The notes under the pieces are model-generated. The model saw nothing but the letters and a program-made list of their open reading frames with translations. It was not told the DNA's origin and did not search any database. From positions 26,089,338-26,153,337 of the forward strand of contig NC_049984.1 of assembly GCF_000003815.2 (NCBI RefSeq): DNA of 64,000 bases. The letters are read 5' to 3'. The position numbers and the translations under genes were made by a program. Below, piece by piece: positions 5,694 to 64,000 of the stretch; the first letter of the stretch is position 1; the number at the start of each line of letters is the position of its first letter. Source of the stretch: Branchiostoma floridae. Taxonomy: Eukaryota; Chordata; Leptocardii; Amphioxiformes; Branchiostomatidae.

Positions 5694-6805
<1,112 letters not shown>

Positions 6806-16589: not shown

Positions 16590-16594
16590 TTTGT

Positions 16595-41625: not shown

Positions 41626-41909
41626 CAAGAAAAGAAACAGTCCTGTAAGAAATGGTACTTCTCTCTAATCCCCATGTTATAATAGGAACAGTGTGTCATT
41701 GTGGTTAGAAATTTCCATTACCTTATGGCAAGGCCAATCCTTATAATCCAGTCATAGGTATCAACACAAGCTTTATACATCAAGACACACTGTGGCTTCA
41801 TACAACAAAATATAAAACTGCTTCACTTAGGTTCAGAGGACATACAACCTTGGCTAACAAAACCATTGAAGTCATGACCTGCCAACACAAAGTTCATGAC
41901 TAATAGTGA

Positions 41910-41941
41910 CACGGCACGAAATCTGGTATTTAAGCAAGCTT
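41910..41941 (+). repeat. Left terminal inverted repeat of EnSpm element
   Basis: Begins CACGGCACGAAA. Matches the complement of the right end at 11 of the first 12 positions and through TATTTAAGC. The preceding 3 bp are TGA. Confidence 0.88.
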
Positions 41942-42189
41942 AAACTCAACGTAAACGATACGTTTCTGCACCCTTTCCGCAACTTAACGACATCTATCCG
42001 TGAACGTAAAGATTCCCTTTAATGTAACCTTTACGTTGGCACTTATATGTACTTATATGCACTCCTCACGTGCCTTTCCGCAACTATTAGACGTGTTTAT
42101 TCCGTATTTACGTATCCTTTACGGGCGGAAAGTACGCGTTTCTTAGGACCTTTCCGTAATCTTTCGGCCACCTTTATAATCTATTTCCG

Positions 42190-42870
42190 TAACCATTTCC
42201 CCTACGTTTATGTTCCGTTCACGCAGACTGAAAGGGTAATTAAAGCAAGAACTTTCCGTGGTCGTTCCGTATCCTTTTATCGAGCTTAACGTGCTATCAA
42301 CGTCATCTTTACAATAAGTTTCCGTTCCGTGAATGACTTAAATATCAACTTTACGAACCATTTTCCCTACGTTTATGTTCCGTTCACGCAGACTGAAAGG
42401 GCACTTAAAGCAAGAACTTTCCGTGGTCGTTCCGTATCCTTTTATCGAGCTTAACGTGCTATCAACGTCATCTTTACAATAAGTTTCCGTTCCGTGAATG
42501 ACTTAAATATCAACTTTAAGAACCTTTTCCCCTACGTTTATGTTCCGTTCACGCAGACTGAAAGGTTACTTAAAGCAACAACTTTCCGTGGTCGTTCCGT
42601 ATCCTTTTATCGAGCTTAACGTGCTATCAACGTCATCTTTACAATAAGTTTCCGTTCCGTGAATGACTTAAATATCAACTTTACGAACCATTTTCCCTAC
42701 GTTTATGTTCCGTTCACGCAGACTGAAAGGGCACTTAAAGCAAGAACTTTCCGTGGTCGTTCCGTATCCTTTCATCGAGCTTAACGTGCTATCAACGTCA
42801 TCTTTACAATAAATTTCCGTTCCGTGGATGACTTAAATATCAACTTTACGAACCTTTTACACTAGCTTAA
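42190..42870. repeat. Left subterminal array, 165-bp unit, four copies
   Basis: CCTACGTTTATGTTCCGTTC begins at 42,201, 42,366, 42,531 and 42,696, exactly 165 bp apart; a fifth unit has diverged. Each unit carries several TTTCCG/TTCCGT hexamers. The flanking 41,960-42,190 and 42,870-43,050 contain further single TTTCCG/TTTACG-type motifs. In CACTA elements such subterminal motifs are the binding sites for the accessory transposition protein. Confidence 0.92.
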
Positions 42871-43425
42871 CGTGGTCTTAGTTTATCCTTTACGGTGAAT
42901 TAACGAGCCATGAATGGCTTATATGTCATCATTGCGAATCTTTAAATGACCATTACGTGGTCTAAGATCATCATTTACGTTTACTTAACCTGTCATGAAT
43001 GTCAACTTAAATGTCAACGTTTCTAACCTTAAGAGACCGGTATATGTAAATATGAAGACAACAGAAACAGGTATGCGTTTAGAAAAAAAATGTATTTTTG
43101 GAAACATAATAGTCACTCAACATGATAAGTCACTCAACTGTAATTGTGAGAAAGTATGCGAAAATTAACTTTAAAAAAACATGACACCATTACATTGATA
43201 TTCCTTCCCACATTTTACAACTTAAACACGCATTACTACATTGCTACATCATTGCAATACTATCCAAGCTACATGTATACGTTACTTCACTACACTTGAA
43301 CCACTACAGTGTGCTCCCACCCTAGGCCTATTTAACATTACTGACATAGCGACATCATTAACCCTAACCTTAACCCTTAACACTGACTCTAAACCTAACG
43401 TCACGGTCCATAAGCGTGCCTACAG

Positions 43426-46400
43426 TCACTCGGTCAGACTGTCGTCCAGGTTGGGACCCCTGTCCGCCTGCCGCCTCCGCGTGATTGCCCACGCGGGGGT
43501 GCCTTCGGGTTTGTCCCTATTAGACAGCACTGTCGATTCAACCCGTACAACACCCCTCTGTGGGCAAACCTCATCCAGGGAGTCTTTCAGCTTCCTGAGA
43601 GACTTCGACTCCCAGGCGAGGCGGCGGACGGTGTATCCCTCCTGGTCCTCTTCTCCACTGGACTCAGACGACATGAAATCTTCATGTAGGAACTCCTCCA
43701 CCCTCTTCTTGCTTTTCTCCGTCCAGTCCTGTGCCTTCTCCAGGGCGCGGCTCCTGCGCTCCACTTTCTGTAACAACATGGTTCTATTGTTACCTACTGA
43801 TATGTAACATGCATTGGCATAATACCGGCAGTAAGTCTTGTAACCCTACATGCAACAATAATTATTTCTGAGGTATGCACACTTCAATACATCATTTACA
43901 AAGCATCGATAACAATGCATTCGAAGACAACAAGGCCAAAAGTTTTCAGTATCTTTTTCGGGACAGGCAGCTCGTCGTGGGACGAACACACTGTCACATT
44001 CATTGCCAGATTTATAGCGGTTGTGACGGACAAAAGTTAAATGAAAATTCTTGACAGTATACGTCCGTTTTCTCATGACATTTTGTATGCTCATGCAGGT
44101 TTATGTTTTATGCATTTACTAAGAGAAAAGGAAGGAACAGCAGAGGATGTATAAAAGTACATAGCGACAGTTAATTGTGCCGCGTTTCTTCCTGGCGGTA
44201 TTTTTACCCCCTCCCAACCACGCGCTCGTTCTCCGTGTAATTCCGCGGCGTAATACAATTACAATATTACGCTTTTAGCAGGCCAAGAGTGGCAGAAAAG
44301 TTACACAGAAGAAGTGGCAAGGGTAAGCTATAACAGCAACATGTTCAATCAGTATGGCTAGAGAAATCGTCGTAAACGTGGCGGTATTATGATAATAGAT
44401 GACGAATCCAGTTGCGAAATATTGCTGATGACACATCATTCAAAGTATCAAAGTTGCAACAATGAGTTACGGTTTGCAATATAATCGTATAGATCTACTT
44501 AGAATAAGTAATGTGTCGAATTTATAATGTTTACCTGCACGAGACGCTGTCGCTTCCTAATGGAAGCCCTGTGTGCTGTCATCTTTCCCTTTTCTCGCCG
44601 CACCTTGTCGTCCCGCTGGGACCGAAAGTACCGTACCGCAGCGTCTAAAAAGAATCAATAGAGCCAACATTGTCACAACCAATAGATATTGTCAAAAGCT
44701 ACAGCAAGTTGCCCAACATTATAAAACTTAATCAATTGCAAATATACATTGTAGAGAAGACTTTGATGTATTAAATCCAAGTTGTACCTTAGCAAACCTT
44801 CAAAAACTACATAGTTCGACCTTACAGAAACCAAATGTTTTGAAATGTAGTCTGATTCATGCCACACATGCTAAACGATAGTCTAAACAATAGTTCAAAT
44901 AATCAAACATTCACCTCTCATTTCCTTGGGAGAGAAGGGGCATTTCTCCGCCCCGCCGTAGTCCTTGACCACCTCGGCCCGCAGGGCTGTGATGACGCTG
45001 TCGTTGGTGGGTGAACTCACACTGAAACAAAAAGTAACATGTTATTTTGCGATTCTTTAGACTATATTCATCGATCAAACTTTGATGTTGGGGATAACAA
45101 TATACATATATTCGTATTCCTGGGAATGACATAAGTATACCTAAGCTATCTCAGCATGTTAAGATTCCTTAAAGTAAGGAGGTCTACGCAGTTATTTGCG
45201 CTTCAAACTGAAAACAAAAAAAATCCATTTTACGGCCATTTCTTTATATAGTTAGTTGAATCAAGCCTACCACAATACGGAACACTATTCAAGGCATGTA
45301 AGGAGTCGATATTTTCTCCGTGCGAGCGCGTTTGAAAACCTGGGAATCTGCACGCCCGCGCTGGGTTTCAGCCATTTTGTTTCTTCGCCGACAAAATCCG
45401 AGTAGTCCCGAGTCTGCCCGAGTCTACCCGGAGATTGGTCACGTGGTTCACCGTGACCTTTCACGCACCCGGAACTCACCGGAGATTCCCGACCAATAAC
45501 CGTGGATGATAACTTCTTGTTTGAATTCTCACCAGTGCCTAACTAGGGGGGGTCAACAAGTTACAGCGCGCGTAGGACGAAATGTTTGTAGGCTAATTCT
45601 CTACGTTGCAAACGTGAAATAATGACACAAAAGCGTCAAAAAGTAGTTGTAAATCTGAGATTTCTTAGTTCTAGAATATTTCAAATTTGAGCGCAAAAAA
45701 CTGCGCAGTAGACCTTTAACATCGTGCCGCGAATTTTTCCAGGATCTTTAAATAAACTTGGAGATTGAATACTAATACTGTACAAACAGTTCACCGCCGC
45801 GGTAATTCAAAATGGTAAAAGTAGGAGTGGGTGCCATTTTGTCATTAATATCCGCTTGTTTTGGGCTCTGGTTGGTTCACCTCGAATGACTTAATCCCCA
45901 AGCAGATCCTACGGTAGCATATATAAAGAGTGTGTTTTGCTACCGGGGACCTGCCTAATCTCCAAGCAGATACTACGGTGCCATAAGATAGTATCAAAGC
46001 TGGCCAGGGAGTATAGCCGGCTAAGGGAGTCAAACGGGCACCGGTAAGTTTGATACTATACATTGCGCACCGTGGATCTGGTTGGAGATTAGGACCTGCC
46101 GGCCGCACAGAAACGGGGAGGAGCGTTTCTATTCAACAATGGCAAATACACACCTCTTAGCTGACTACACTCCTTGGCCAGTTTAGTACTATCTTATGCC
46201 ATCGTATGCCATCGTAGGATCTGCTTCGAGATTAGAATGACCTGCACTCTGACAGGCTAATTACTTGTTTTTCGCGCGCATTTTGCAGATTGTTCCTTCG
46301 CTGATCAGAATACTAGTACATGTACTAACCTTGCATAAATTTCGGGACGTTTAAAGAATAATAGTACCTTGCATAAATTCCGTTTGTAACAAAGAGGTAC

Positions 46401-48886
46401 AGAAACCATAGCCTACTTTGCAGGGATACCTTAGCATGTTCAACGTCTTGGACTCGTGTCATATCGTCTATTTGTGCTCGGATGGGTCTTAGCTTTAAAA
46501 ATTAATAACCCAGGCTCCGGCAGCCATGGTATGTCTTCCCGAGGACCTCAGATAAGCACTACGGTGAGGTGTCATACAGGGAGACTTTGCCCGCCTTCTA
46601 CTGACTTTATACCCCCCCCCCCCTTTATTCACAATTTCCCCGTCGTATATCTGGGCAAAGTTTATCCAGTGTCAAAGCAGATATTGAAAGGCAATGATAC
46701 CACCTTGTCTGGGAAAACTGCTAGAGGATGTGCTCGACAGCCAGGGCACCTCTTGTCCAGACCTTAGATAAGCAGGGGAGGTGACTTTGCAGACTCTGGA
46801 ATCCAGTCTACATTCGTGGCTTGGTCCGAACGTAGCTTAGTAGTTTAGACTCTCTACGGGCAAATGCAGTTCTCTACCGCCGAGGTAAGCGTTTTCACCC
46901 GTTCGGATTTTCACGCGGCGGTAGGGCCTAATGGGAGTAATTGTCTGCCTATCAAACAACAATTATCAAACTCTCATCGGGCAACAGTTCCATCGTGAAA
47001 ATCTTACCGGGGCAACGAAACGTTTACCCCGGTGGCAGAGAGCTTCATTTGCCCGTAGAGAGTCTAAACTAGCCACGTTCGGACAAAGCCACGAATATTG
47101 ACTGGATTCCAGGCTACTAGTACTAGTATTCTCTGCAAGTCACCCCCGGGGTGCTTATCTCAGGTCTCGGCAAGGATAGCCTTGGCTGCCGAGCGCATAC
47201 TCTAGCAGTCTTTTTCCCAGACTAGGGGGTCACATTGCATCCAACATCTGCTTGGACACTAGAGATACAGTACCCAGATAGCATACGATATACGGCGGGG
47301 AAATGTAAATGGTAGGGAGGGGGCTTGTAAAGTCAGTAGCCTTATTTGACACCCCCGGAGTGCTTATATGGGGTCCTCGGGAAAACCTGCCTTGGCTGCC
47401 GGACAGATTCTCTGCCAGCCCTGGCCAAAAGTCTGGCTCCCAGGCCAGGCTAGTTTTGGATGCCAAAATGATTCCAGGGCCTGCCCAGGCCGGCTCCTCG
47501 GAAAAATGCCCGCGAATCGACCCCCAGAGATGCCGGTGAAGGAGGCTAGCTTAGTTAACGCAAGGGTCTATTTAAACTCGGACATATGGCAGAATTTCAT
47601 GGGAGCATGTTGACCCTGGAGCCGAGGAGCTAGTCTGTACAGGGCCTCTGGCATCTAGACTAGAACTGGGCTTACTCTCGAAGCAGAGATTGGCATTCCC
47701 TGGGTGCCAGACAGGATCGGGTAGCTAGCGAGTTTTGTTCGGGGTTGCAAGGCAGTCGGCCCGCCGATCTCACATTAGCGCTCCGGGGACTTTAAGCTCT
47801 ACGGAGGTATCGCTACCTCTCGGACTTAAACTCCCCAAGGCGTTAATAGGAGCTCGGCGGGCCTGACTGTCTTGGGCCACCGAACAAACTGTCCTAGCTA
47901 CCCGATCCCGACTGGCACTCAAATACATGCAGCATAATAATTTTCAGGCACGCTAGCCCTATAAAGTTAGATTTACAACAAATTGGACGCATCCCATACC
48001 TTTCAGTCAAGTCAAACCCATCAAAATCGTTCTGGCCATCCACCAAGACTCGGTACATTTTCCGCACATCATCCTAAAATGTTGAATTGAAAAGGCAAAT
48101 TAAATTTGGTAACATGTTCTTGAGTTATTTGCTAAAAGAGAGCTGAACAACACATTTCACTCATATGTAACATATCGAGAGACAAACACAGCCCTTGTTT
48201 CAGTAGCTTTTAGTTTAATTTGTAACATTGCAGTCAACACGTAACTTTTTAGCCTGGGTACCATACCATCGAGGCGCTCGGCGGTGTAGGGGTGGTCGCC
48301 AGTACAGTTCATTGGTACAGGCCGGTGGAGTTCTTACGGGGTTGGGTTTATAAGTCGCGCCCCGACGCGGGCGCGGTAAACTCAAAAGGCCGGCTACAAG
48401 CTCTATCGGCGAAATCTCAAAGGGCAGCTAATCAGACAGGCTAACAGAAGCAGGTCGGTGCCGGGAAAAGCACCCCAAAGCCGACCGCGGAGAATGGTAC
48501 CCAGGCTGGTAACTTTTGTGTGCTATGACTTGACACATTATAAAAAACGAAGTCACTACCAGACAAGCAGCATTTTATAGCTACTATAAGTGGCATTTGG
48601 CATTAGAAGCGGTTCAGACCAAGAATCACGCAGTAAAAGATGTGCTTACCCTGCATTTGTGTGGCACTTTTGACGCAGTCCTCCGTCGGCGTTTGGTGCC
48701 GCGGGGGACGCGCCCATCTCCGCTCTCCGGCCGGCTGCTGTTAGACGGGCCTGCCGCGGCTTCTTGCAGACGCTGACCCTGGAGATTTTGGATCAGTTTG
48801 GACTGGTCTTCCAACTTTTTCATCACCGCCTGAAGAATCAGGGCCATGTTTTCCTGCTGTCCACGCTCCATTGGATTGTCTGCCAT
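43426..48886 (-). CDS. Second gene of EnSpm element (TnpA-like role?), 289 aa
   Basis: Five exons in perfect phase: 48,886-48,650, 48,073-48,000, 45,021-44,915, 44,644-44,535 and 43,767-43,426, each with GT donors and AG acceptors, total 870 nt including TGA. The ATG has an ACCATGG context. Residues 10-42 predict a coiled coil (LILQAVMKKLEDQSKLIQNL); residues 62-69 are a nuclear signal, RGTKRRRR. The central part has ALRAEVVKDYGGAEKCPFS and AAVRYFRSQRDDKVRRE, a basic helical region (ASIRKRQRLVQKVERRSRA), then acidic DFMSSESSGEEDQEG and RRLAWESKSLRKL. No named family recognised. Its position, divergent from the transposase inside the same element, suggests a role like plant TnpA, binding subterminal repeats; that is inference. 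Introns 1 and 2 host nested MITEs without affecting the splice sites. Confidence 0.75.
45891..46234. mobile_element. Foldback MITE, 344 bp, hAT-like duplication
   Basis: Ends TTAATCCCCAAGCAGATCCT and the complement AATCTCGAAGCAGATCC. Flanked by GAATGAC on both sides (45,884-45,890 and 46,235-46,241), a 7-bp or 8-bp (one mismatch) target duplication, close to hAT size. A second palindrome with the same termini (about 45,953-46,095) is nested within it. It lies in intron 2 of the 289-aa gene. Confidence 0.75.
46508..47406. repeat. 0.9-kb imperfect palindrome (large foldback element)
   Basis: Arms of about 370 bp pair across a centre near 46,955. Examples: TTCCCGAGGAC at 46,533 with GTCCTCGGGAA at 47,373; ACTCTCTACGGGCAAATGCA at 46,849 with TGCCCGTAGAGAGT at 47,051; ATTCGTGGCTTGGTCCGAAC at 46,811 with GTTCGGACAAAGCCACGAAT at 47,079. 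This is a large foldback/MITE-like insertion in intron 2 of the 289-aa gene. It encodes nothing recognisable. Confidence 0.85.
47703..47920. mobile_element. Foldback MITE, about 218 bp
   Basis: The left arm GGTGCCAGACAGGATCGGGT pairs with the right arm ACCCGATCCCGACTGGCAC, and pairing continues inward through GGGTAGCTAGC and TTTGTTCGG. The target duplication was not resolved. Confidence 0.75.
48250..48508. mobile_element. MITE, 259 bp, 9-bp target duplication (MULE-like)
   Basis: Terminal inverted repeats AGCCTGGGTACCAT and ATGGTACCCAGGCT. The 9-bp flank GTAACTTTT is repeated exactly at 48,241-48,249 and 48,509-48,517. A 9-bp duplication is typical of Mutator-like elements. It lies in intron 1 of the 289-aa gene. 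Confidence 0.85.
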
Positions 48887-49269
48887 GGTTTAGATGCGAA
48901 GAGAGTCGACCGTTGACTTACTTGTCTTCAAAATAGACGCTGTCAGAATGACGGTTCACTTCTGTCTGCGATTTGAAAATGGTAGTCTTTTCTCTTATTG
49001 GATACCGCCCTATCACATGACTTTGCTTAGTTGCAAGTTCACTTTTACGGATTTGCATGAAAACAATGCATCACTTACCAAATTCATGTTGCAGGATAAA
49101 GCACAATGAAAGCGCGAAACAGACCAGGAAAGGAGTTCGTTGTTTGTTTATTTAGCACGAGGGCGGAAGCTGATTTTGACACCTTTCGTCGGTGCATCTG
49201 AGTGCGGGTAAAACACAAGATTATTGTCTGCTATGTTAGGTGGTAGACATTCTGGCGACGTCTATGCAT

Positions 49270-49480
49270 TATTTTTTTCACTCTGAACAAAATATAATTC
49301 ATAAGAAAAGGATGAAAAATTTTCGCCGACTTTTTTAATGGAGTTTTTGCACGTTATAACAAAGTGTAATTCATAAGAAAAGGATGTAACATTTTGCCGA
49401 CATTTTAGCAAGGAGTTTTTACAAGTTATAACAAAGCGAAATTCATGAGAAAAGGATGTAACATTTTTGCCGCCACACTT
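49270..49480. repeat. 72-bp tandem repeat in the divergent promoter region
   Basis: TTCATAAGAAAAGGATG begins at 49,298 and 49,370 and recurs with one change at 49,442, exactly 72 bp apart, each followed by a TTTGCCG- or TTCGCCG-like phrase. It lies between the start of the 289-aa gene (48,886) and the TATA box of the transposase gene. Position suggests a shared regulatory or transposition-protein binding array. Confidence 0.85.
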
Positions 49481-49506
49481 CAAAGCAAACGACAAACCAA
49501 TGACGT

Positions 49507-49514
49507 TATATAAA
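49507..49514 (+). promoter_or_regulatory. TATA box of transposase gene
   Basis: TATATAAA lies upstream of a likely first non-coding exon (start about 49,538) that ends at CTCACAG|GTATGA (donor at 49,600). The matching acceptor, a pyrimidine-rich tract then CACACATAG at about 50,042, precedes the ATG by 27 bases. Confidence 0.6.
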
Positions 49515-50069
49515 GAGAGTCTACTACATGCGCCTAGTATGCGGAGACGGCGGAAACGCATTGCTAGGCAGAGGGAGTCTCAGTGATCGTCACACTCACA
49601 GGTATGAATTATAAAACTTTTATCTGTTGATGTACTAAATGGAAAGTTTTGCCGAGATTTATATTCTTGGATGAAGATTCAATGAGTTTTCCTTATACCA
49701 TAGTAAAATTCCGTTTAACTAGCTGTTTGGACTATTTACGTATTGTATATATTATGACTTATTATATATTATGACTGGCTGCCAAAGAAAGTATGATGAA
49801 TGAATGAAGACCTTTATTGTACGTTTTTGCTTTCTAACAAAGCACAGGTCAAGGTGAATAGGGTACATTTCCTAGTGACATTTCAAGGCTTATCAAGTAG
49901 CGTGTAGAGTGATACATATACTTTTAAACGAAGGATATTTCCGTTCGATTTTAAGTTACCTGTATAAAAAATGTAAGGCGACTCGCCATTTAGAACTCTA
50001 GGCTAAGCGGTGACCTTATCGTTTTTCTCCTATTCACACATAGGCAAACCCCCCTTGGGCAAACTGAGC

Positions 50070-53000
50070 ATGGATCCCACTACCCCCACTACGACATGGT
50101 TTTGTGGCCACTGCAATCAGAACGTACGCAAACGTACTTTCTTCATCCACAGACAGAAGTACTACAACAAAGCAACTAGAGAATGGAGACAAGAAAATGC
50201 GATGAGAAAGCACCATATGCAGAGCCGCGCCAGGGCAGTGCCAGACCCACTCGGCAACGTCAACAGTGATTCTGACAGTGATACTACTACTTCTAGTGGT
50301 AAGTTGAATATCATTCCAACTTGGGTAATGATTATGGCGTTTCCCGACATACTAATAGCCCCTGTTCTTTCCTCTCAGTGGATAGAGTATCCTAACGTTA
50401 GAAAAATGATGACTTCTTCCAATGCTACCGGCTAGCACGAAGACTTCATATTTTTTATTTATTTTTTTTAGTGAAGGGAATTTCCCGTATCATTCGCCGA
50501 GTGACTTAAAAAATGTAGTCATGTGTACAAGAGAAATATAAGCTTGAAACGAACGGCTGAGTTCATTATTAAAAATGAGTTTAAACATATTGTGCGTTTT
50601 ATTGGCTTCAAGTTGACGCCGTCTGGTTTAGACGTTATTAGATCATATGTCATTTAATATTGATGTACCTGCCAAATCAAGCGAGTTATTCTTAGCAGCA
50701 GATTCGATGTAGAACCTTTAGACACATGTATGAAATTCGAATCCTGTAGTCTTCAATATGACGCTAGTGTTACCTCAGTGGGATATTTGAGATACACGAT
50801 CGCGTAGTGGTAAAATTTTTCTGTGTTTACGCCAATGAATCTCCTGTATCCAATGCCATCTGATATGGTAGGACGTGTATTTTGGATAATCTATTCGCAA
50901 AAGATGTGCTGGTACTACTATCCGCGCAGCAAAACAGTTAGAAGGTAAAAAGCAGTCGTTTTCAATACGTAACGTTGAGCACAGCCAAGGTGGGGAGGGG
51001 GAGGCTTTGGGTACCCCATGGGTCGTGGCCTCACAAGATAGTGTGTATGTGATGTGTAACTCCCTCCCCAACTTTTGCCAATCATGTTCAAAATGCGAGG
51101 GTTAATTTGGCCTTTGAGTTGTTGTCATGACTCCTGTATTTGTGTCTGTGAAAAAAACAAGATGTACCTGACTAATATGTAAACGTTATATTAACTTGTA
51201 TTAACGTTATACCTGCATACCATCTTCAGTCAAGTAACATTCATCAGGTACATAATGTTTTTTATAAAATAAAATGATATTAATAAATATGTAACTTTAC
51301 TTCCTATCACGGAAGCTCATCTGTGTTGGCAATAATCATAGTACAATGCTACACTTTCTTTCAAGTCACAAGTTTTTTCTTAGTTTTTTTTTTTTTTTTT
51401 TAAATTACCACCATCAGAATATTCAAGGCCAAATGCAGAAACCACCTTTTATCTAATCACTAACTTGTAAAATTCTAAACCCTTTCCAATCGTTCCATCT
51501 TTTCTCGATCTTTTTCTCGCTTATTGGTGTTTATACTGATGATGATGATAATGGTATGTATATTGAGTATAATGATGATGTATTTTGTTCCTTGTAAAAT
51601 TACTGCTACTTTATGATGTATTATGTATTGCTGTTGTATAGTCTGATATTCAGTCGAATGAATTGTTTATTGTAATGATTTGTATTTGTATGTACTAGTG
51701 ACAGCCGTTACCAGCTCCGCTGCCTGGCTGTCACGTGTCATGCATTGTAGCATTCCAAATAAATGAAATGAAATGAAATGAAATTTTCAGCGCCTTCCTC
51801 ATATGTAAACCGGAAGGTGGCGTAACTTCGGCATACCCACAAGTTCACAACTTCGGATTAATTTTTAATTGTCTCAATATGCAAAAGTGAGGCATGTCTG
51901 TTTACTTAATGTACAGAGCTGTCGTCTGGATTAAACACGTGTTCAATACTAGTAACCAATTTTTGTGTCACAAAGGAATTTTAGCAAGCAAGGTCATTGA
52001 ACAGTGGTGCCTCTTACGTTCAACTTAACAATCATCATGCAAATTTAATACTAATAGTTTTAGACAAGAGGCATAAACTGTACAAAACACCAAAATTGTG
52101 GGTCTTGGGAGTTTATCTGACAATTAAACTGACCTGAAATTACTAAGTAATCGTTGCGTCAAACGCCCTCCCCCAATTTACCTCACGGTGATCCATTGAC
52201 CGCGGTTCGAAGTGTACCACAACAGTGCGGGCACTCTAATTTGTCGTTCACACATTGTATCCTGGCCACAGTGCCATTTTTTGTTTGTTTTATTTGTTTG
52301 TAGGTGTGTCTTAGTGATTATACCTAACAATTACAATTAAAGTAGACCTGTGAAGTTATTTTCACAATTTGATAGGTTTTCCAAGTATTGTTTGGTTGAA
52401 ACCCTGAAATTTTTCTCATGGTAGATGGAGGTACTAGTACTTGGACAAGTCTTTTTTGTAAATCAAAGTTCCTGGATTGTTACAGCTTGTCATGAAGATG
52501 TGATTGTTAAATTTATGCATTCAATTTGTTTACTGAGGAATTGCTGTAGTCCATGTTCTCCAAATGCAGACAACGTCATCATATATTCTATTTTATTCTG
52601 CACAGAGCCCAGCTCAGAGTGCCCACCGATTGATCTGGACCGCCCTGACACTGACCAGGAATCCAGCAGTACTTCAGAAAGTTTGGTAAGTTGTTTATAC
52701 TTATAAGCTGATTATAATAAGCACAAACTACAGGGATTTTGATGCTTTGAAAGTAGAGGAGATCTCTATTACTAGCTGTCTAGCTATTCTCCAAGCAAAA
52801 GTTGGGTTGCGGAGATAGTAGAGGTCTGGTAAAACTGACCACTACCGTGTCGTCAGCTGTTCACAGTTGCAGCTGTTTCAGGTATCCATTGTGAAGCTGT
52901 GTGGTTGTTTTTATTTGGTGTCGGTCTTTTGATTTGAGACGCTGATTTTGCTTTTGATGCGTACAGAATTGTGTTTTACATTTGGCAGTAATAGGTATGT

Positions 53001-55967
53001 TAGCTTTTAAGGTTTTGGTATAAGACGATGTGATATGTTCTGTATGCTCACTCCCTCAATCACTAGTCGACCCCAGAAGGGGACGGGGTCACACACCACA
53101 GAAAACAACACAACCAACATTAAACATAATTATGTCACAGACTATCATTATGTTACCTATGGTCACTTGGTATTAAACCTTGGGCAAGGACTTGCAAGAG
53201 AAATTTAATTATTTATTATAACGTTTAGCATTTTGGTTGAAAATGATTTACCATTAATAACGCCACCCTTGGCATCTGTTGTTTGTAGGATGAGAGTGGG
53301 TCCTCACAGAGCGACCTCGAGAGTGACGATTCAGTGACAGAAGATGGCGCAGAAGAAAGTGAAGCACCCTCTGAGTCTGACTCAGAGGAAGAGATCTGGG
53401 AAGGCAGTGAAGGTGAGGAACAGCTACTGCGGGACCTGCACACCGCTGCCGTGAATGACTCGACTGAGCCGGTCACCAAAGAAGCAAGAAGTGACCCAGT
53501 CATCACCGTGGTAACCTGGCTGCTGACATTTTTAGTCATATGGCAGGCCCACTATCATGTCAGTAACAATGGGTTGGAGCACCTGATGTCATTTTTATTT
53601 CCTGTCTTAGAGAGTTTGGGAGTAGATTCTAGCTGCCTGCAGGGTTTGTCCTCGTTATATTTGACATGTAAAGTTTTGAGTATTGACAGAGATAATTTTA
53701 CCAAGTACTGTGTGTGCCCCAACCCTAAGTGCTGTAAGTTATATCCTATGGATAAACTGTACGAAGTTGTTAATGGAGTTGAGAGACCCAGACGTTGTGA
53801 TAACAGTAGGAAAGTTAGAAAAAGAAACATAAAATGCAATACCATCATATCCAGGGAAATCATTACTACGGTTTCTAGGAGACGGGTTTATTACCCACTG
53901 AAAGTGTACTGTTTCAAGAGTATCATTGAATCACTTGAATCTTTGGTGAAGAAAGAGGGTTTTGAAGAGAAGTGTGAAGCCTGGAGAGACCGAAATGTGT
54001 CACATATGGGACTGTATGGTGATGTCTTTGAAGGAAAGGTTTGGAAAGATTTTCAACAATGGAACGGAAAGGATTTCCTCTCTGTTCCACGCAACTATGC
54101 ACTCATGATGAATGTTGACTGGTTTCAGCCATTCAAGCGTAGAAATGATTATTCTGTAGGTGTAATATATGTCACTGTAATGAATCTGCCGCGGTCAGAG
54201 AGGTTTAGATTGGAAAATGTCATGTTAGTTGGGGTTATTCCTGCCCTTGCGAATGAGCCTAAGTCACTAAGTACATTTTTAGACCCTATTGTGACAGAGT
54301 TGAAGTTCCTCTGGGAGCAAGGTGTGTCCTTCACCACGCACATGTCTCCATGCTTTCCATTGAAATTCCGAGCTGCACTTTTGTGCTGTGCTGCTGACAT
54401 ACCTGCTGCAAGGAAATTGTGTGGCTTTTTGGGTCATGCAGCCAAATTAGGCTGTTCAAAATGTAAAAAGGAATTCAAACGAGTTGATAATAAAGCCGAC
54501 TACTCTGGTTTTGAACGGGACACCTGGCCCTTGAGGACTGATACAGAACACAGACGGCAGGCTCAGGTAATCAATAGGTGTACGAACAATGCAGAGAGAC
54601 TTAGACTTGAGAAACAGTTTGGCACTCGGTACACTCCTCTTTTAGAGTTACCTTATTATCAGGCTGTTAGATTTTGTGTAATTGATCCTCTCCACAACCT
54701 TTTTTTGGGAACAGCTAAACGTATGTTTAAGACCTGGGTAGATCGGGAGATCTTGACGAAGGCTGATTTAGTTGAAGTAAGTAAACGCATTGAAACTGTT
54801 GTTGTGCCTCCAGGTATGGGACGAATTCCAACAGGAATTTCATCTAATTTTGGTGCATTTACTGCTGAGGAGTGGAAAAATTGGACGCTTTACTATTCAA
54901 GCTATTGTCTGGATGGTCTCCTTCCAAAAGAGCATATGGATTGTTGGCAAATGTTTGTGCTGGCATGCAAAAAGATATGTCAGCCTGTTGTGAGGGAAAG
55001 CGAAATAAACTATGCTGATGCTGCGTTTGTGACCTTTGGCAAAAAAGTTGAACATTCAAATTTGTTTGGAAACTCTTTCGTCACTCCCAACATGCATCTT
55101 CACTGCCACCTAAAGCAATGTGTTCTTGATTATGGGCCAGTGTATGGTTTTTGGCTTTTTAGCTTCGAGCGGTATAATGGCATTCTTGGTTCAGAGTGTA
55201 CCAACAATCGTGGAATTGAAATCCAATTGATGAGAAAATTTCTTGTAAGCGGGTTTGCTCATTCCATCCCTTTACCAACAGATCTATGGGAGAAATTTGG
55301 CGTACTATTTGCAAAATTTTACTCCAAGAGCAGTAATTCAGATATTTCACCCGCTGTTGAAATTGATCTCCAGACGATGGCTACCACTCTCAATGTGTCA
55401 GATATTGATTGGTCTGAAGACCCTGAGACGATTCAACTACCCATCAATTTCACAAGAGTGTCCTTATCAAGAGATGAGAAGCGTTCTCTTGCTAGTGCAT
55501 ATTCCTCAATGTATCCTGAAGATAGCATTTCAAATATGGCTGAAACGGTGAGAAAATATAACACTTGCCAGGTAGGACAAGAATTCTTTGGCTCCAAAGT
55601 GGCCTCTAGGTCAAGAAACTCAGCTTGTATCATGGGCCGATGGGCATCTAATGAAGGTGATGTTGACATAGGTAATGGCTTGAGACCTGGAATGATTCAA
55701 TGTTTCTATAGACATACTGTAGAGATTAATGGAAAGCCAAGTGGCCATGTATTTGCAGTTGTGGAATGGTACAAGGTATCTCCTATGAAAGACAAAATCG
55801 GCCAGGGGAAATGTTGTACCGTATGGAGAAAGGGTTTTGTGAGTCGAGGTGGTGCCTCATTTGTACCTGTACAGCGTATATATAGTAAAACTGTGTGTGC
55901 ACACACTAAGGTAGATGGACAAAAAGTGGTTATTGTCAGCCCTGTTGTCAGAAAAACATATTTATAA
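50070..55967 (+). CDS. EnSpm/CACTA transposase (TNP2-like), 995 aa, three coding exons
   Basis: Exons 50,070-50,298, 52,606-52,685 and 53,289-55,967 join in phase (GTAAG, CACAG, GTAAGT, TTGTAG sites) to 995 codons. The ATG has A at -3 and G at +4. Residues 10-30 form a C-x2-C...H finger (WFCGHCNQNVRKRTFFIHRQ). An acidic Ser/Glu-rich linker follows, then a TNP2/Transposase_21 core: NVDWFQPFKRRNDYSVG, NVMLVGVIPALANEPKSL, CGFLGHAAKLGCSKCKKEF, VIDPLHNLFLGTAKRMFK, FTAEEWKNWTLYYS, TPNMHLHCHLKQCVLDYGPV and FSFERYNGILGSE. Candidate catalytic acids are D380 (NVDW), D569 (IDPLHN) and E730 (SFERYNG). It cuts and joins the element ends in the nucleus. The length is within the usual range and no stop or frameshift is seen. 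It diverges from the 289-aa gene. Confidence 0.93.
51480..51785 (+). mobile_element. LINE 3' UTR tail in intron 2 of the transposase gene
   Basis: A 3' UTR-like stretch with GACAGCCGTTACCAGCTCCG and GCCTGGCTGTCACG, a small hairpin, followed by CCAAATAAATGAAATG and an (AAATG)n tail at about 51,761-51,785. No coding part remains. A poly(T) run at 51,386-51,401 lies just upstream. Intron 1 also holds a possible antisense LINE tail near 49,797. Confidence 0.6.
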
Positions 55968-56119
55968 AGTGTTGAAGAAGCACTGAGTTTTACTGTAGTA
56001 CAGCGTATTATTTTGGCTCGAGATTAGAATGATACTTGATAGTATGCAGCATCCCGCTCTCTGTATATGCTGCTGTTGAAATAAGCAATGCTGAAGCATG
56101 GGGGAATGACTGTATTGAA
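55968..56119. other. Transposase gene 3' flank
   Basis: No clean polyadenylation signal was identified. GGCTCGAGATTAGAATGA near 56,014 resembles the right end of the MITE at 45,891-46,234 and may be a fragment of one. Confidence 0.3.
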
Positions 56120-56545
56120 GATTGTTCCTTAACCTTCACCGTGTAAACAATTAAGTAATGTCTGTAAATATCCTTGTACAAATAGTAGTGCCAAAGCATT
56201 GATTAATGGACTGTGAGCAAGGACTGTAATGTGTGAATTGGTTCTTCAAGATGTAAATGATTAAGTACTGTCCATATGTATTTCTGTAGAAATAGCAGTG
56301 CCAAGGTAACAATGACTGATAAAGTGAACAAGGACTGTAATCTGAAGATTGTTTCTTCACCATGTTAACGATTAAGTACTGTCTGTTTATATATCTGTAC
56401 AAATAGTAGTGCCGAGGTATCAATGACTGATAAAGTGAACAAGGACTGTAATATAAAGATTGTTTCTTCACCATTTTAGTGATTAAATACTGTCTGTTTA
56501 TATATCTGTGAAGTTTGTATTAATGCTAAAATGAACAAGGACTTA
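56120..56545. repeat. Tandem array, 110-115-bp unit, about four copies
   Basis: GATTGTTTCTTCACC-type phrases start at about 56,120, 56,235, 56,348 and 56,458, each followed by ATTAAGTACTGTC, AATAGTAGTGCC and GAACAAGGACTGTAAT. The unit shortens from 115 to 110 bp. It lies in the transposase 3' flank, possibly within the 3' UTR. Confidence 0.85.
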
Positions 56546-56809
56546 CATGAAGATTTTTCTGCAGCACAACATGTACTATATTATAAAAAATAGCAACACA
56601 ATAAAATATCACGTTCTGAAGATGCTGCTTGTTTGTGTTTATAAACTTCAGTTGTCAAGAAAAGAACCACAACATAGCTACGACTACTCTCAAAGCAGAA
56701 TTATTTTGGATATTTTAGACATTTTATGTCAGACGTTCTATTTTGTCAGGTTTTCATTTTTGGCAGCCAGTCAACGTTTTGCGCCTAACGTCTGCTTGGA
56801 GAGTATCTA

Positions 56810-57119
56810 AAGGTGGGTTCACACGTGCGTATATATTTAAGTCCGTATGAGGCGCGCATGGGAGTATTTGCCTCCACCAGGGCCCACAGGTCGCTGGAAA
56901 AATAATAGAAATTGGACAACGTAGACAGATAACATGTCGGACGAGTTAGCCTGGTCGCTAACCATACTTCTCGGTCAGCTAATTCATCTGGCATGTTGTG
57001 TATCTATATTTGTCCAATTTGTACTATTTTCCCCGCGACCTGTGGAGCCTGGTAGAGACTAAGAGCTTCATACGCACCTCAAACGGACTTGAATATACAC
57101 GCATGTGTGAACCCACCTT
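56810..57119. mobile_element. MITE, 310 bp, TA duplication
   Basis: Starts AAGGTGGGTTCACACGTGCG and ends CGCATGTGTGAACCCACCTT, flanked by TA on both sides. Pairing continues inward (CCACAGGTCGC at 56,886 with GCGACCTGTGG at 57,037; AAATTGGACAA with TTGTCCAATTT), so nearly the whole element folds back. It lies between the transposase and kinase genes. Confidence 0.88.
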
Positions 57120-57415
57120 TAGGGCAGCACCCATGGATTGATGACAATACACATCGCAATAGAAGCTACAGTCTTTGATTTATTTACAGTAACAAGACAG
57201 CCTTTGTGGCACAAAACATACCACCATCATGATTTATTTTTAGTCAATAAATCTGACGTGTGCTGTCATAACTTGAAATGAACACTGTTCTAAACAATTC
57301 AGCTAAAGAACGAATATACAGTATGATAGCGTGTACGTACGTCTGATGTATAAGTTTGTTTACATAGATCAGCTGTTAGTCAATAGTGACCAATTACAAC
57401 TTGCAGCAAAACAAA
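57120..57415. other. Spacer, 3' flank of the kinase gene
   Basis: AT-rich, no feature recognised. Confidence 0.4.
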
Positions 57416-58960
57416 CTAGGGCCCCGGTGCCAGAGCAGACACAGCCTGCATTAATGATAGACGCTGGCACTTGTCGACATGAGTACACTCTTTATATACA
57501 GCGTCCAACTCCCCATCAGCAGTCTTTAACTTACGCACAACTTTCTCTATCATCTTTCCAAATGAATAAATGTCAGTCAACACTGAGTGAACACTCAATC
57601 TGTCCCTGTATAGACTAGGATCTATGTGCGGATAATCAACAGCACGCTGTTCCCTCTCCTGTCTACTGAGGTGGTGATATCCATAAGACTTGTGCATTTC
57701 ACAACTCTTTCCAAAGTCTATGATTATTGCAGTATAAGACGCATCTGTCTTCTCTACACAAACATTGTTTAGCTTTAGATCACAATGTAGGAAGCCACAC
57801 TTGTGGATGTGATTGAGCCCTGCAGCTACCTGGCAAAACAAATCTTTCCACTGCATAAGATTTACAAATGACAAGCCTTTGTAGAGCGCTTCTAACAAAG
57901 TTACAGATGTTTCATTGCAGCCATGAAAGGATGTTATTAACAGGAAAGGTGGTCGGTCCATGGCTACACCAACAAGCGCTGGCAATGACTTATGAGTAAA
58001 CATGTTCATTAAAACCTTCGCTTCGTGAACTAAGTCTTGTTTTATTTCACGCTCTGGTCCTACATCCTTAAACTGTTTAACAGCCACATTAGATCCACGG
58101 TATGAGTACAGTTTACATTCACCGAATGTCCCCTCCCCAAGGATAATATCATTACCTAACAATGGGTGACGCACGGGTGTTAACAACGTTCTGTCTACAC
58201 AATACGAGGCTGGTATTGTTCCTGTCCGTCTCACGGGTGGCCTGGCATTCATGATAATCTGTTTTTGTGATTGTTCAATCTTAATCTTATTTCTTAACAT
58301 TACTTGAGTAGCCTTGTAGTCTTGGATTTTGGTGCGTAGTGTTTCGTTTTCCGCCATGAGCTCATGTAACCGTGCCTGCTGACACCCTTGGGCTTGGCTC
58401 GTAGTTGGAGAAAGTGTTCCATTCGGGCTGGCTGAACTCTCGCCGGTTGTAATCTTCCGAATGCCGTAGTAACATTTCCCGTGGTTGTATGACCGCTCTT
58501 TCTTACATCCAGGGAATGCCTTTGTGACTATCGAGCCGGCATTTTGTTGACTGATGTATCCAAATTTACTGCGCAAGACGTCACGGATTTCTTCAACAGG
58601 CACTTTGGATGCATTTTTGCCCCTGCTTGCTCCAACGCGATACGAAGTATCCGATTCGTAGTGTGTCTTCAGCCTGATAATGAAAAAAATTGTTTGCGTT
58701 TTAGTTTCAGGTACATATACAAATCAAGATTCTGAGATTACTTCCGGGTATCTTGAGTGGCCGTTTCCAAAATCAGTTTCCTTGAGTAACTGCTCTTTGG
58801 CCTTATTAATCAAGAAAAACCAAGGAGCTTTTATCAGAAACACGGCATTAAACAATTTTTACTTTCAAGCAACCGTCGTTTCTAATTTCAGAGTAAAGTG
58901 GAAAGAAGCTTACCATCTGGCCTTTTCTTCGAGAGAAGACAGTTGTGTGATCTGCTCCAT
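57416..58960 (-). CDS. RFX-like winged helix-protein kinase fusion, 434 aa
   Basis: Two exons: 58,960-58,914 (MEQITQLSSLEEKAR, ending TG|GTAAGC) and 58,673-57,416 (after ATTATCAG), which rebuild a Trp codon across the intron. Without exon 1 the long frame has no ATG. Residues 16-89 (WLKTHYESD; FPGCKKERSYNHGKCYYGIR) match the RFX-type winged-helix pattern ending in Y-Y-G-I-R. About 115-155 is a coiled coil. The kinase domain follows: glycine loop GEGTFG 195-200, VAVK with K215, E233, catalytic HCDLKLNN with D314 (HRD is HCD here) and N319, DFG 335-337, DIYSFG D383. All core residues for phosphotransfer are present; lack of the HRD Arg suggests independence from activation-loop phosphorylation. 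Ser/Thr or Tyr specificity is open; HCDLKLNN favours Ser/Thr. It is cargo or an accessory gene of the EnSpm element. Confidence 0.85.
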
Positions 58961-59560
58961 ACAGTCTCCACGATGAAATGAATAGCATTACTATAAACAG
59001 CGTCCTGGCTTTGTTGCTTTGCCGAAAGGCACCAGTCTGACGGGTTCTATTCATTAGCATAATTCAACGCCAGCAACGCCTCACAACACAGGACAAAAAG
59101 ATTGAATTTAGCATACAAGTGCAAGCGTCCTAAGTGTCTTGACAAATTCAACTAAAAGAAACAAAGATAAGCACGAGAAACCAGTTTCTATAGCTAAAAA
59201 ACGATAATACTGCCTATATAGCAAATTTAAAAATTCTCGACAAGGCGAAAGCAGACATAGAAATATAAAAAGTAAATGCTTAAAAAAAGGCAGGTGTGTT
59301 TTTACCAGGGTTAACAAAAATTAGATTGGTAAGCATTTTCGGTGGAAAGGTTCCTGTGAAAAGTGTTTTTCCGGCCCTTTTGACGAAAACAGCTTGTTTA
59401 TGGCCCATCGAGTACGTAACAACAATTCATAATCTTCTTAGAATAGCCTGCCTGTCTTACACCTAATAACGGAACTGGTAATATAAGCCAAAAGCATAGG
59501 AAAATCCTGGGATAAATACTACTTATTTTTCCACTACTAGTATAGTATTACATGATTATG
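58961..59560. other. Kinase 5' flank
   Basis: No gene. A weak TATA-like TTTATAGT (minus strand) lies about 35-45 bp upstream of the kinase ATG. The rest is AT-rich. Confidence 0.35.
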
Positions 59561-60830
59561 TAAAGTCAGCTCAAATGAAACGGAATGACATCGGAAAGAT
59601 TGTATCTGTTATATGTAGATTTCACACATAAGAACATTTGCCTTTCTGGGTTAAACTTAACACGCTAACACAGCAGGAGCTATCAAGTTCAAGTTGCTGC
59701 CTTAGTGAAAGTCACATGTGGTATATTGAGCGGAAAATACTTATAATTTGGTAAAAGCAATGCCTCTTGTTCAAATAATGATTAACGCTACCTTTCCGAC
59801 ATCTTTTTTCCACCTATACATAAAAGGGGGGAGGTTTGCTTAAACCTCCCCCCTTCTATGTAAAGTCAGCTCAAATGTAACGGAATGACATCGGAAAGAT
59901 TGTATCTGTTATATGTAGGTTTCACACATAAGAACATTTGCTTTTCTAGGTTAAACGTAAGAACGTAACACGCTAACACAGCAGGAGCTATCAAGTTCAA
60001 GTTGCTGCCTTAGTGAAAGTCGCATGTGGTATATTGAGCGGAAAATACTTATAATTTGGTAAAAGCAATGCCTCTTGTTCAAATAATGATTAACGCTACC
60101 TTTCCGACATCTTTTTTCCACCTATACATAAAAGGGGGGAGGTTTGCTTAAACCTCCCCCCTTCTATGTAAAGTCAGCTCAAATGTAACGGAATGACATC
60201 GGAAAGATTGTATCTGTTATATGTAGGTTTCACACATAAGAACATTTGCTTTTCTAGGTTAAACGTAAGAACGTAACACGCTAACACAGCAGGAGCTATC
60301 AAGTTCAAGTTGCTGCCTTAGTGAAAGTCGCATGTGGTATATTGAGCGGAAAATACTTATAATTTGGTAAAAGCAATGCCTCTTGTTCAAACAATGATTA
60401 ACGCTACCTTTCCGACATCTTTTTTCCACCTATACATAAAAGGGGGGAGGTTTGCTTAAACCTCCCCCCTTCTATGTAAAGTCAGCTCAAATGTAACGGA
60501 ATGACATCGGAAAGATTGTATCTGTTATATGTAGGTTTCACACATAAGAACATTTGCTTTTCTAGGTTAAACGTAAGAACGTAACAAGGTTTGCTTAAAC
60601 CTCCCCCCTTCTATGTAAAGTCAGCTCAAACGTAACGGAATGACATCGGAAAGATTGTTCAAGCCGCTGCCTTTGTGAAAGGCGCATGTGGTATATTGAG
60701 CGGAAAATACTCATAATTTGGTACAAGCAAGGCCTCTTCTTCAAGAATAAAGATAAACGATACCGTTCTGACATCTTTTTTGCACCTATACATAGGGGGA
60801 AGGAGGTCTTAATAGACCTATACTAATAAG
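59556..60830. repeat. Right subterminal array, about 300-308-bp unit
   Basis: TAAAGTCAGCTCAAA begins at 59,561, 59,861, 60,169, 60,477 and 60,616: spacings of 300, 308, 308 and 139 bp (the last internally deleted), then a diverged partial unit. The first unit differs slightly (lacks CGTAAGAA). Each unit contains several CGGAAA hexamers (TTTCCG read from the right end) and a perfect hairpin AGGGGGGAGGTTT-GCTT-AAACCTCCCCCCT. Confidence 0.93.
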
Positions 60831-61189
60831 AGTATGTAAAATGTGATCAAATGTAACAGAAATGCAATGAAAATATATTATCTCCCATGTAATTTTTACC
60901 TTAGAGAACTACGAAAATGAAAAAAGGCGAAGTTCAACTGATTGTATCTGAACGTATAGTCGGTTTAAAGCCTGTAGATAACTTCTGTACATAAGCAATA
61001 CCCGTTTCATCTATACGGCACATATAAGAATGCTTAAAGGTTATGTTTAGATATCACATGTATTTAATTTACCTTAACGAATACGGAAATGTTGCGGAAA
61101 GGTAAAACAATAGTTTCCGTGGTCTTTACGATGCCGTAAACCCTGCGGAAATATTTCCCCACCTTTAGGCTTCATTTAAGTATTTCGGA
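60831..61189. other. Right subterminal region, non-repetitive
   Basis: No gene. It contains scattered CGGAAA motifs, including GATGCCGTAAACCCTGCGG near 61,131, like the single-copy region just inside the left end. Confidence 0.5.
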
Positions 61190-61221
61190 AAGTAGGCTTA
61201 AATATTCGTTTTCGTGCTGTG
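61190..61221 (-). repeat. Right terminal inverted repeat of EnSpm element
   Basis: Ends in TTTCGTGCTGTG, the complement of CACAGCACGAAA. It is followed directly by TGA, the same 3 bp that precede the left end. Confidence 0.88.
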
Positions 61222-61538
61222 TGAGTAGGGGAAGTAGGCAATAAAAAGGAATGACACGTTCTAACATTTGGATTTATGCACCCGAAATCGGTCTTAATAC
61301 CGAAAACAACTTGAAATCTACCGAAAACAACTCGAAACCGTCTAAAACATATCAAAGCAATAATGAACAGCCGATCAGAACTTTAAAACAGCCGGAAAAC
61401 AACTCGTTAACAACTACTTATGTCTATTTTATCTTCATCTACTGGTTACTATCCCTTGAATTATTTAGATTCATATAAATTCTATATATGAATAAAACAA
61501 CTATAGATTCATAGATGGAACTGCTGGACTATAACTTG

Positions 61539-64000
61539 CTAAATTGATGTCAGCTCTTTTCCGTCAATGTTGTGGTGTCTCGACTGTGGGCATGTCGGAA
61601 AAGTGGCATAGCAACACCCAGGAATGATGTCGAATGGGTCCTCCATCTTCAGCTCTTCTACCAGTTGTTCTGTTTCATGTCTGAGATCGGGAACTGTGTG
61701 TTTACCTTTTGCTGTGTATAGGGAGATGTCACTCAAATGTGCAGATGGTTCACTCAACACTCCGAGGCTGTTTCCTTCTCTTGTCACTGTTGCGCCCGTC
61801 ATGTTTGGCCCCAACCGTGTCAGACCATCCTCCGCCTTCTTGTTCAGGATTTCCATAGCAAAATCTTTTGGTATATTCTTGCCAGGCAGTCCATGGGCAT
61901 TGATGGTCTTGTTGTGAAGAATGGCAGCAGAAAGGCGTGGTGTCAGAAGTGAATTATGCTGTGCAATGTACTGGAATGCCAGGTCTTTGTAATGGTTGTT
62001 TGTTTTGGAAGTACTGTTTCCGTCTCCGATTGTTTGACAAGATCAAACAATCCTTCTCTTGCCACTGAACAGTTATACTTGAAATCTTCCTTCCCTTTCT
62101 CCGTTTCAATCTTACTGTTTGGCTGCTGCTTCTCTTCTACTCGGGCTTGTACATCAACAACAACATCCATTTCCTCTTCCACTAAATCTTCTTGCACCTG
62201 TGCTGCCAATCTTTATCATATACATGTATCTCCATGTCTTCTTCAACACAGACCTTGTGTGGCATAGTGCTTTCTAACAGTCCAGCCTGGATAGCCACAG
62301 GCAACTCTTCCCTCAGGTATGACATCATTCAGCACATCATCTGTGTCAAATGTCGGCAGTATGTGTTTGTCTACAACTCTGCCAATGACATTCTTCAAGT
62401 ATTTACATTTTGCTTCCTTTTCAAACACCTCGATACCTCAAGGTGCACTGGCATGTCTCTTTCAAGGTGGCCATTCCAGTTTCCTCAATTACAGCAAGTA
62501 CCAACAGTCCAGATGTTACGAACTGGAAGGACTCTCTATTCGGATGGAAGGAATCATTGACGTGCTTTTTGGCATTCCTCCTGAATTCGAATGAAGTGCA
62601 ATGTTACCATTTCTCTATCGTATCCTGGGCTATAGTATGCGTCGTACACATCCTGGAGAGATTCAGCAGTTACCAGCTCGAGTCCTTCAAGACCGTCAAA
62701 TGGAGCGTAGTTTCACTGGGGAAGTCACCCCGGCGAACAGGCTATCCAAGTTTCGATCAGGCATCAAGCACAGCTGGTGCACTGAAGGCGGGTCGCCCAG
62801 TACTTCAATGTGTCAGCGCCGTGTAACTACTCAAATGCACGAAACCCCCGAGAAATGGATTGGGAACTGGTAAGTGTCCACACAGCAAAGTAAAACCTCT
62901 GGAGCGTCCTGCAATAGCTTTGGTTCAACTGTAAACACGGTGTTTACTGGAGCTCCCGGGATACAACCATCACCGGCACTCGCCATTATTCACAATATGA
63001 CGCCACGGCTCGAGCGTATATATACTGGTGGCGTGGTGGCGACGGGCAGCTGGTGGTTGTGACAGCGGCAGCTGGCGGTGTGGTGGTGGTGACAGCGGCA
63101 GCTGGTGGTGGTGACAGCGGCAGCTGGTGGTGGTGACAGCGGCAGCTGGTGGTGGTGACAGCGGCAGCTGGTGGTTGTGACAGCGGCAGCTGGTGGCGTG
63201 CTGGTGGTGACCGCTGGCGACGTGCTGTATTCCAGCAGCGAGGCAGATGTCATCTTGTAGGCCCACTTACAGAGTAACTTCTCTCTTGGGAGAAATCGCC
63301 CTTTCTTCCACACTTGTTGCTTCCATTAGTGCTCTGCGCGGGGCCTCCAAGCGGTGGTTGCCATCAATTATCTCTATACAGTACTTGTGCAGCTTTCCTT
63401 TGTCAAAGTCCTCCACTATAGGGCAGTCTTCCCTCTTGATCAAACTGATCAATGACTCTGCTGACTGGAAGGGTAAGGCTGCCAGCTGCCAGGAAGCTAC
63501 TTTCTCTTTCATTATCGCAACAAAGTCGTGGCTGGACGTTGACCAACGTACAACTATCTTGTGCCTTCTTTCAACTTCAGTCATTTGCTTGTCCAACTGC
63601 GAAAATGAAGATTGGTAAACAGCCACATCGCTCTCCAACATTATTGAAAGTATCTATTCCTGAACTGTATTTAACTGAAGCAACTTTTTGTCACCTACAC
63701 AGTTTTTGACATGTCTGCTTTTGAGGTGGGTCGCTTTCCAGTATTAATGACATCCTTTTCTCTCTCAGCCCATGACTTGATTTTATCCATGGACACATTT
63801 GCATCAGCAATGACTGCATTTAGCCCTTCTTTGACGACACAGCCAGCTTTTTGTGCACTTAGTTTCTTTTTGACAAGTGCGACTTCAATATCAAGTGTCT
63901 TCTTCCTGCGTGAGTAATGTAAGAGCCTATGTGTCAGCAAGTCTAAACGGCGCGACTCAGTCATTTCTTTGGTAATCCATGTGCAATGTCTAAGGAAGGC
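61539..64000 (-). CDS. DUF6589-like protein, multi-exon, partial
   Basis: Minus-strand blocks in order: from the window edge to about 63,700 (AFLRHCTWITKEMTESRRLD, LLTHRLLHYSRRKK, a coiled-coil stretch); 63,655-63,267 (AVYQSSFSQLDKQMTEVERR, HDFVAIMKEKVASW, AESLISLIKREDCPIVEDFD, LHKYCIEIIDGNHRLEAP); 62,440-62,250 (KYLKNVIGRVVDKHILPTFD); 62,209-61,990 (acidic); 62,010-61,539 (YKDLAFQYIAQHNSLLTPRL, ILHNKTINAHGLPGKNIPKD, LNKKAEDGLTRLGPNMTGAT). The last block has the N-x-x-x-N-x-x-G-x-x-G-x-N-I...E-x-L-N pattern I associate with DUF6589. The first may instead belong to a separate KDZ-like transposase gene. The acidic block and the last block are in different frames, so an intron or an indel lies near 62,000. 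The gene is cut by the window edge. Confidence 0.45.
63030..63212. repeat. 21-bp minisatellite, about seven copies
   Basis: GGTGGTGGTGACAGCGGCAGCT and close variants repeat with a 21-bp period. It lies between coding blocks of the DUF6589-like gene, probably in an intron. Confidence 0.85.

Follow-up and report, generated by a model that had tools for sequence, protein, structure and literature searches.

A precisely bounded 19.3-kb EnSpm/CACTA-type element in Branchiostoma floridae that carries a predicted protein kinase gene

Can a eukaryotic cut-and-paste transposon bring its own protein kinase, and would such an enzyme control transposition or the host? This question is raised by an element of 19,312 bp in a 64,000-nt window of the Branchiostoma floridae genome (C6:26089338-26153337; the genome comprises 513,431,437 bases in 431 contigs). 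Coordinates given without a contig are positions in this window, which denotes the whole stretch of DNA analysed. We read positions 41910-61221 as a single EnSpm/CACTA transposon, a cut-and-paste DNA element that integrated while duplicating the trinucleotide TGA, and we put the probability of the overall explanation developed below, including the proposed roles of its genes, at roughly 0.7. The element encloses a transposase gene, a second gene termed ORF2 and a protein kinase gene.

The left end of the element reads CACGGCACGAAA from position 41910, and the right end, when reverse-complemented, reads CACAGCACGAAA and finishes at 61221, the right terminal inverted repeat closing with TTTCGTGCTGTG. 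Over their first 32 positions (41910-41941 on the + strand and 61190-61221 on the - strand) the two ends are identical at 24. The pattern CAC[AG]GCACGAAA occurs in the window at these two ends only, and the CAC...GTG termini form the short inverted repeats that EnSpm/CACTA elements require. TGA flanks the element on both sides, at 41907-41909 and at 61222-61224, as expected for the two copies of a target-site duplication. A preliminary description of this DNA had reported the 24 matching positions and the identical TGA flanks, and both are present. Its element, placed at 41907-61224, is likewise real, but that range takes in the TGA duplications and the true boundary lies 3 bp further inside on each side.

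If the element is an insertion, uninserted versions of the same site should read through a single TGA, and such an empty site had been proposed as a check on the boundaries. We joined 150 bp of the left flank (ending in TGA) to 150 bp of the right flank and searched the genome with the product. Six paralogues, all on C6, bridged the junction among 91 matches (the best 40 of 117 candidates were scored). The paralogue at 27362026 aligned with query positions 1-204 at 83% identity, and the other five with positions 131-211 at 84-89%. In five of the six, AATAG or AATGG is followed by a single TGA and then by GTAGGGGAA, and in none of these five does the TGA share its T with the preceding G. The sixth, more diverged paralogue has TTA in place of TGA. 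Since uninserted paralogues bridge the joined flanks, the target of the transposon was a repeat that was already in place, and the ends given above are precisely those of the inserted 19.3-kb unit.

Ends of the same kind are found throughout the genome. In the end searches 40 candidates were scored per search, and the numbers of matches are thus lower bounds: at least 70 for the left 300 bp and at least 40 for the right 300 bp. The left-terminus pattern CACRGCACGAAATYTGRTATTTAAGC, allowing up to 3 mismatches, matched 125 times in forward and 126 times in reverse orientation in the 513-Mb genome, compared with 0 and 0 for the reversed control, and 69 listed places, including the window element, matched it exactly. 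The right end differs from CACRGCACGAAATYTGRTATTTAAGC at 3 places (hand count), so right ends are among the 251 matches. From at least 21 copies noticed with both ends (left and right matches about 2.8-9.7 kb apart on the same contig) we selected 20 before their flanks were inspected, leaving out at least the one on C305. These copies carry CACAGCAC at either end, with the exception of L047, whose right end is CACAGCACAAAA. The 3-bp flanks were identical in 18 of the 20, with a triplet that varied from copy to copy; at 1/64 per copy the chance of this is 6e-31. The flanks did not match in L034 (TTA/AGG) and L041 (GAA/TAC). Other copies with different 3-bp duplications, the second check suggested in the preliminary description, therefore exist. 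Identity to the window ends was 84-88% on the left and 90-91% on the right, which makes these copies relatives rather than recent daughters of the window element.

The end-sharing copies that were fetched are short; one has reverse-transcriptase-like frames, as judged by eye (L047), and another large N gaps (L040). A search of the fetched loci L001-L068 at E 0.01 gave no match to the window transposase, although several of the end-sharing copies contain assembly gaps. A second full-length 19-kb copy was not found. The best right-end match, on C3, shares 99% over 297 bp and 98% over 497 bp but does not extend beyond this at such identity, and the 20 kb retrieved around it contain no left end to match. 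Six further right-end places (C3, with 20 kb in two stretches, and five with 4.5-4.8 kb) had no left end in the stretch examined, beyond which it may lie for some of them.

We considered that two unrelated solo ends might face each other by chance with matching TGA triplets. That the ends are only 24/32 alike, and that the full-length unit is the only one found, would fit such an arrangement. However, the uninserted paralogues join both flanks directly, which, short of an assembly error, refutes it, and in the short copies left and right ends of these same kinds occur together, flanked by 3-bp duplications. Chance juxtaposition is thus extremely improbable, and it is virtually certain that 41910-61221 is a CACTA element with these ends.

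The transposase gene occupies 50070-55967 on the + strand. Like all exons reported here, its three (50070-50298, 52606-52685 and 53289-55967) were predicted from sequence alone. They are separated by GT-AG introns and encode 995 amino acids in a frame with one terminal stop and no internal stop or frameshift. The large exon matches the tnp2 family (Transposase_21, PF02992) with an E value of 3.2e-18 and 66.1 bits against a cut-off of 28.6. By eye, the translation shows the catalytic DDE residues and, ahead of the last E, motifs of the C(2)C and H(3)H type (MNVDWF, AADIPAARKLCGFLGHAAKLGCSKC, NMHLHCH and FSFERYNG). The passages on EnSpm/CMCT elements in PMC12730594 list CAC..GTG ends, a 3-bp target duplication and the motifs C(2)C and H(3-4)H. 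Together with the ends and duplications described above, the intact three-exon frame and its tnp2 domain uphold both the full-length TNP2-like transposase and the EnSpm/CACTA identity that had been put forward.

The genome search with the transposase returned one 100% copy and three full-length relatives at 62% identity (C5:21352023, C19:6371961 and C13:1222006), all with open frames that span 884 codons. Beyond these, the search found no full-length transposase that exceeded 62%. The remaining long matches were at most 41% identical, and short fragments reached 83% over 48 residues (two, on C6). The C5, C19 and C13 transposases score nearly equally against the query, and further ORF2 matches on other contigs are also near-equal to one another. 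The near-equal scores of the transposases and of ORF2 suggest a sister family that was recently active. A complete transposase frame and intact ends, the two features that mark an autonomous element, are both present in the window sequence. On this basis autonomy is plausible, and the transposase is probably still functional.

ORF2 lies to the left of the transposase on the opposite strand (43426..45021, -), with exons 45021-44915, 44644-44535 and 43767-43426, whose 185 codons specify a protein rich in lysine and arginine. Its first exon was not found: four candidates satisfied the rule used, and none was convincing. The earlier statement that no gene shows a visible mutation is accordingly borne out for two of the three genes, the transposase and the kinase, which are complete; the three recognised exons of ORF2 are clean. 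Each of the 62% transposases has a homologue of ORF2 (50% identity) in its vicinity, upstream and on the opposite strand as in the window. Because its homologues adjoin related transposases in this divergent layout, we regard ORF2 as a core gene of the transposon lineage. The second gene of maize CACTA elements encodes TnpA, a protein that binds the element ends, and ORF2 is perhaps its counterpart. Of the two additional genes first described, ORF2 thus looks like a standard core component, and the kinase remains as unusual cargo.

Subterminal repeats near both ends are typical of CACTA elements, and both are present here. A tandem array of 165 bp x 4.1, rich in TTTCCG/TTTACG, occupies 42191-42858 (+), and repeat units of 308 bp x 3.4 occupy 59557-60586 (+), with similar arrays in end-sharing copies such as L029, L033, L040 and L047. 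The leftmost 1.2 kb of the element contain the heptamer CTTTCCG 8 times and the rightmost 1.7 kb 10 times, compared with a single occurrence in the 16.4-kb middle and 3 in the 44.7 kb outside. Inverted-repeat stretches are also found inside the element at 46516-47403 and 56807-57122, and may be short nested insertions. Their appearance would favour a composite in which the kinase, and perhaps ORF2, belong to other elements nested in the transposon. Against this, the homologues of ORF2 are found next to related transposases and, as here, divergent from them, and no listed inverted-repeat pair encloses the kinase, a weak test because ends as imperfect as those of the element itself fell below the threshold. 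A composite origin is improbable, although less so than chance pairing of solo ends.

The kinase gene is located at 57416-58960 on the - strand and consists of two exons (58960-58914 and 58673-57416) with GT-AG splice sites in matching phase, encoding 434 amino acids. Its kinase domain matches PF00069 (E 3.8e-21) and retains the VAVK, HCDLK and DFG motifs. The domain is preceded by an N-terminal segment ending in CYYGIRK and by a stretch that resembles a coiled coil by eye. By sequence the nearest kinase domains in the PDB are of Src type (7.7e-10), and a PHROGs search returned a phage Ser/Thr kinase family (2.4e-18); no relative was found in viral contigs. The same layout is present in frames on C9 (L057) and C16 (L058), and in an alignment of the three kinases the K, H, D and DFG columns are invariant. 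The C9 frame (C9:1368048-1369490) is open over 481 codons and 24% identical to the window kinase over 449 columns. Between the C9 and C16 kinases identity is higher (55% over 130 residues and 36% over 268). An acceptor-like site precedes the N-terminal segment in all three, at the same point and phase. When a profile of the three N termini was compared with the PDB, RFX5 was the top of 4 matches, weakly (E 0.15); the RFX-like character of the N terminus is a hint and no more than that.

Does the kinase belong to the transposon lineage, or was it picked up once? Plant CACTA elements capture genes, and the window kinase could be a passenger of this sort, a host gene captured by the transposon and without a role in transposition. 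Among 13 matches in the genome the only close copy of the kinase is its own, and several matches of the kinase search resemble ordinary host kinases. However, the frame, splice sites and catalytic motifs of the window gene are intact. Its nearest homologues are not ordinary host kinases but share its unusual N terminus, coiled coil and acceptor position, and relatives in a state of decay are dispersed in the manner of a repeat, the majority of them on C6.

Linkage to transposases points the same way. On C16, about 1.9 kb separates the kinase frame from a transposase that is 41% identical to that of the window; for a single place, the chance of lying no more than 20 kb from one of the 53 transposase matches is about 0.004. 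About 14 kb further on there is a weak ORF2 match (41%, E 1.8e-6). On C9, a weak match to ORF2 (30%, E 8.3e-4, with one stop) lies at a distance of 11 kb from the kinase, and local comparison gave 32% over 68 residues for it. On C6, relics of a kinase (26036388) and of a transposase (26032691-26033026) are 3.4 kb apart.

A number of observations nevertheless weigh against a kinase that belongs to this lineage and against parts of the wider picture. The elements with the closest transposases (62%, on C13, C19 and C5) have no kinase match near them, and the 3.2 kb read after the C13 transposase contain no kinase. Where kinase and transposase do occur together, the arrangement is not conserved, since position and strand differ: the window kinase is downstream of and opposite to the transposase, but the C16 kinase is upstream and in the same orientation. 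Near the C9 kinase there is no transposase match within about 96 kb by protein and none by Pfam model. The C16 frame is broken by an assembly gap. Under a strict donor rule no upstream kinase exon was found at C9 or C16, only in the window. The resemblance to RFX5 is weak: with the window N-terminal segment alone RFX5 was third of 3 PDB matches (E 1.7), and a Pfam search of this segment gave no match reaching the cut-off and none to RFX. Finally, the ORF2 matches beside the C13, C19 and C5 transposases each count one TGA within the match.

Taken together, the fairest summary is that the sequences indicate a repeated association of the kinase with transposons, which could reflect a gene present in the ancestor and since lost from some elements, a transfer from one element to another, or two separate captures. 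On balance we favour a kinase that is a long-term component of the transposon lineage over a one-off capture; the passenger explanation is a serious, though less probable, competitor. Separately, the C9 frame may be a gene that a transposon left behind or that was domesticated from one.

The distal part of the chromosome-size contig C6, at about 19.5-27.9 Mb and with the window at 26.09-26.15 Mb, holds decayed kinase and transposase pieces as well as all six empty-site paralogues. C6 accounts for 15 of 28 kinase matches (13 of them in this part; two of the 15 resemble ordinary kinases) and for 22 of 53 transposase matches, the window's own genes being included in both counts. We considered this accumulation as evidence of linkage and set it aside, because the matches depend on one another and the repeat of the empty site likewise clusters there. 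Low recombination and local duplication are ideas that might explain it.

These features can be combined in a provisional scheme. The transposase would bind the ends, excise the element and insert it at 3-bp staggered sites, with ORF2 as a putative accessory helper protein that binds the ends. The element would be autonomous now or have been so recently, and could mobilise the shorter copies that share its ends. The kinase would combine a DNA- or protein-binding module with a coiled coil and a kinase domain, and might regulate transposition by phosphorylating either proteins of the element itself or a host factor. That the kinase regulates transposition is a tentative proposal. A more specific version, in which an animal CACTA lineage encodes a DNA-binding coiled-coil kinase that recognises the repeats or the transposase complex, switches transposition by phosphorylation and has been kept by selection across deeply diverged elements, we hold to be rather unlikely as a whole. 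If a transposon can bring its own kinase to control transposition or the host, then transposons would supply not only transcription factors but also genes for signalling. More immediately, a precisely bounded animal CACTA element whose transposase frame is unbroken, and for which there are empty sites and numerous short copies with shared ends, offers a transposase-substrate pair that is directly testable.

The remainder of the window contains traces of other sequences. An open frame just outside the element (61539-62042, -) matches DUF6589 (5.2e-07). By eye, the open frames at 15705-18349 (-) and 6800-7549 (+) resemble a DIRS-type recombinase plus reverse transcriptase and the end of a LINE reverse transcriptase, respectively.

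How does the element compare with known systems? With EnSpm/CACTA elements it shares CAC..GTG ends, a 3-bp duplication and the motifs C(2)C and H(3-4)H, as these are set out in the superfamily descriptions of PMC12730594, together with the tnp2 domain and subterminal repeats. It differs in ending with CACGG/CACAG instead of CACTA, in its length of 19.3 kb and in carrying a protein kinase. The animal TRC elements (SmTRC1 of Schistosoma, and those of Aedes and Tribolium) belong to the same superfamily in animals and have Transposase_21, but PMC1636069 gives them CCC ends, 2-bp duplications and lengths of 4.7, 5.2 and 9.2 kb, compared with CAC, 3 bp and 19.3 kb here. The word 'kinase' does not occur in the main text of that paper. 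Among the first results listed for open-access full texts, none described a CACTA element with a PF00069 kinase, and none turned up on an RFX-kinase combination. KolobokP elements, composite-like animal transposons known also from three Branchiostoma species, likewise carry an extra enzyme; as portrayed in the relevant passages of PMC9587614, this is a homing endonuclease, and the internal region lies between long terminal direct repeats. A parallel is provided by the fungal IS3EU transposons, DNA transposons with a kinase gene opposite in orientation to the transposase, as described in PMC12730594; they differ from the window element in transposase superfamily, in kinase family (alpha-kinase there, PF00069 here) and in host kingdom. 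The element in the window is thus a member of a known superfamily with an unusual kinase cargo, for which the precedent found is the alpha-kinase of fungal IS3EU.

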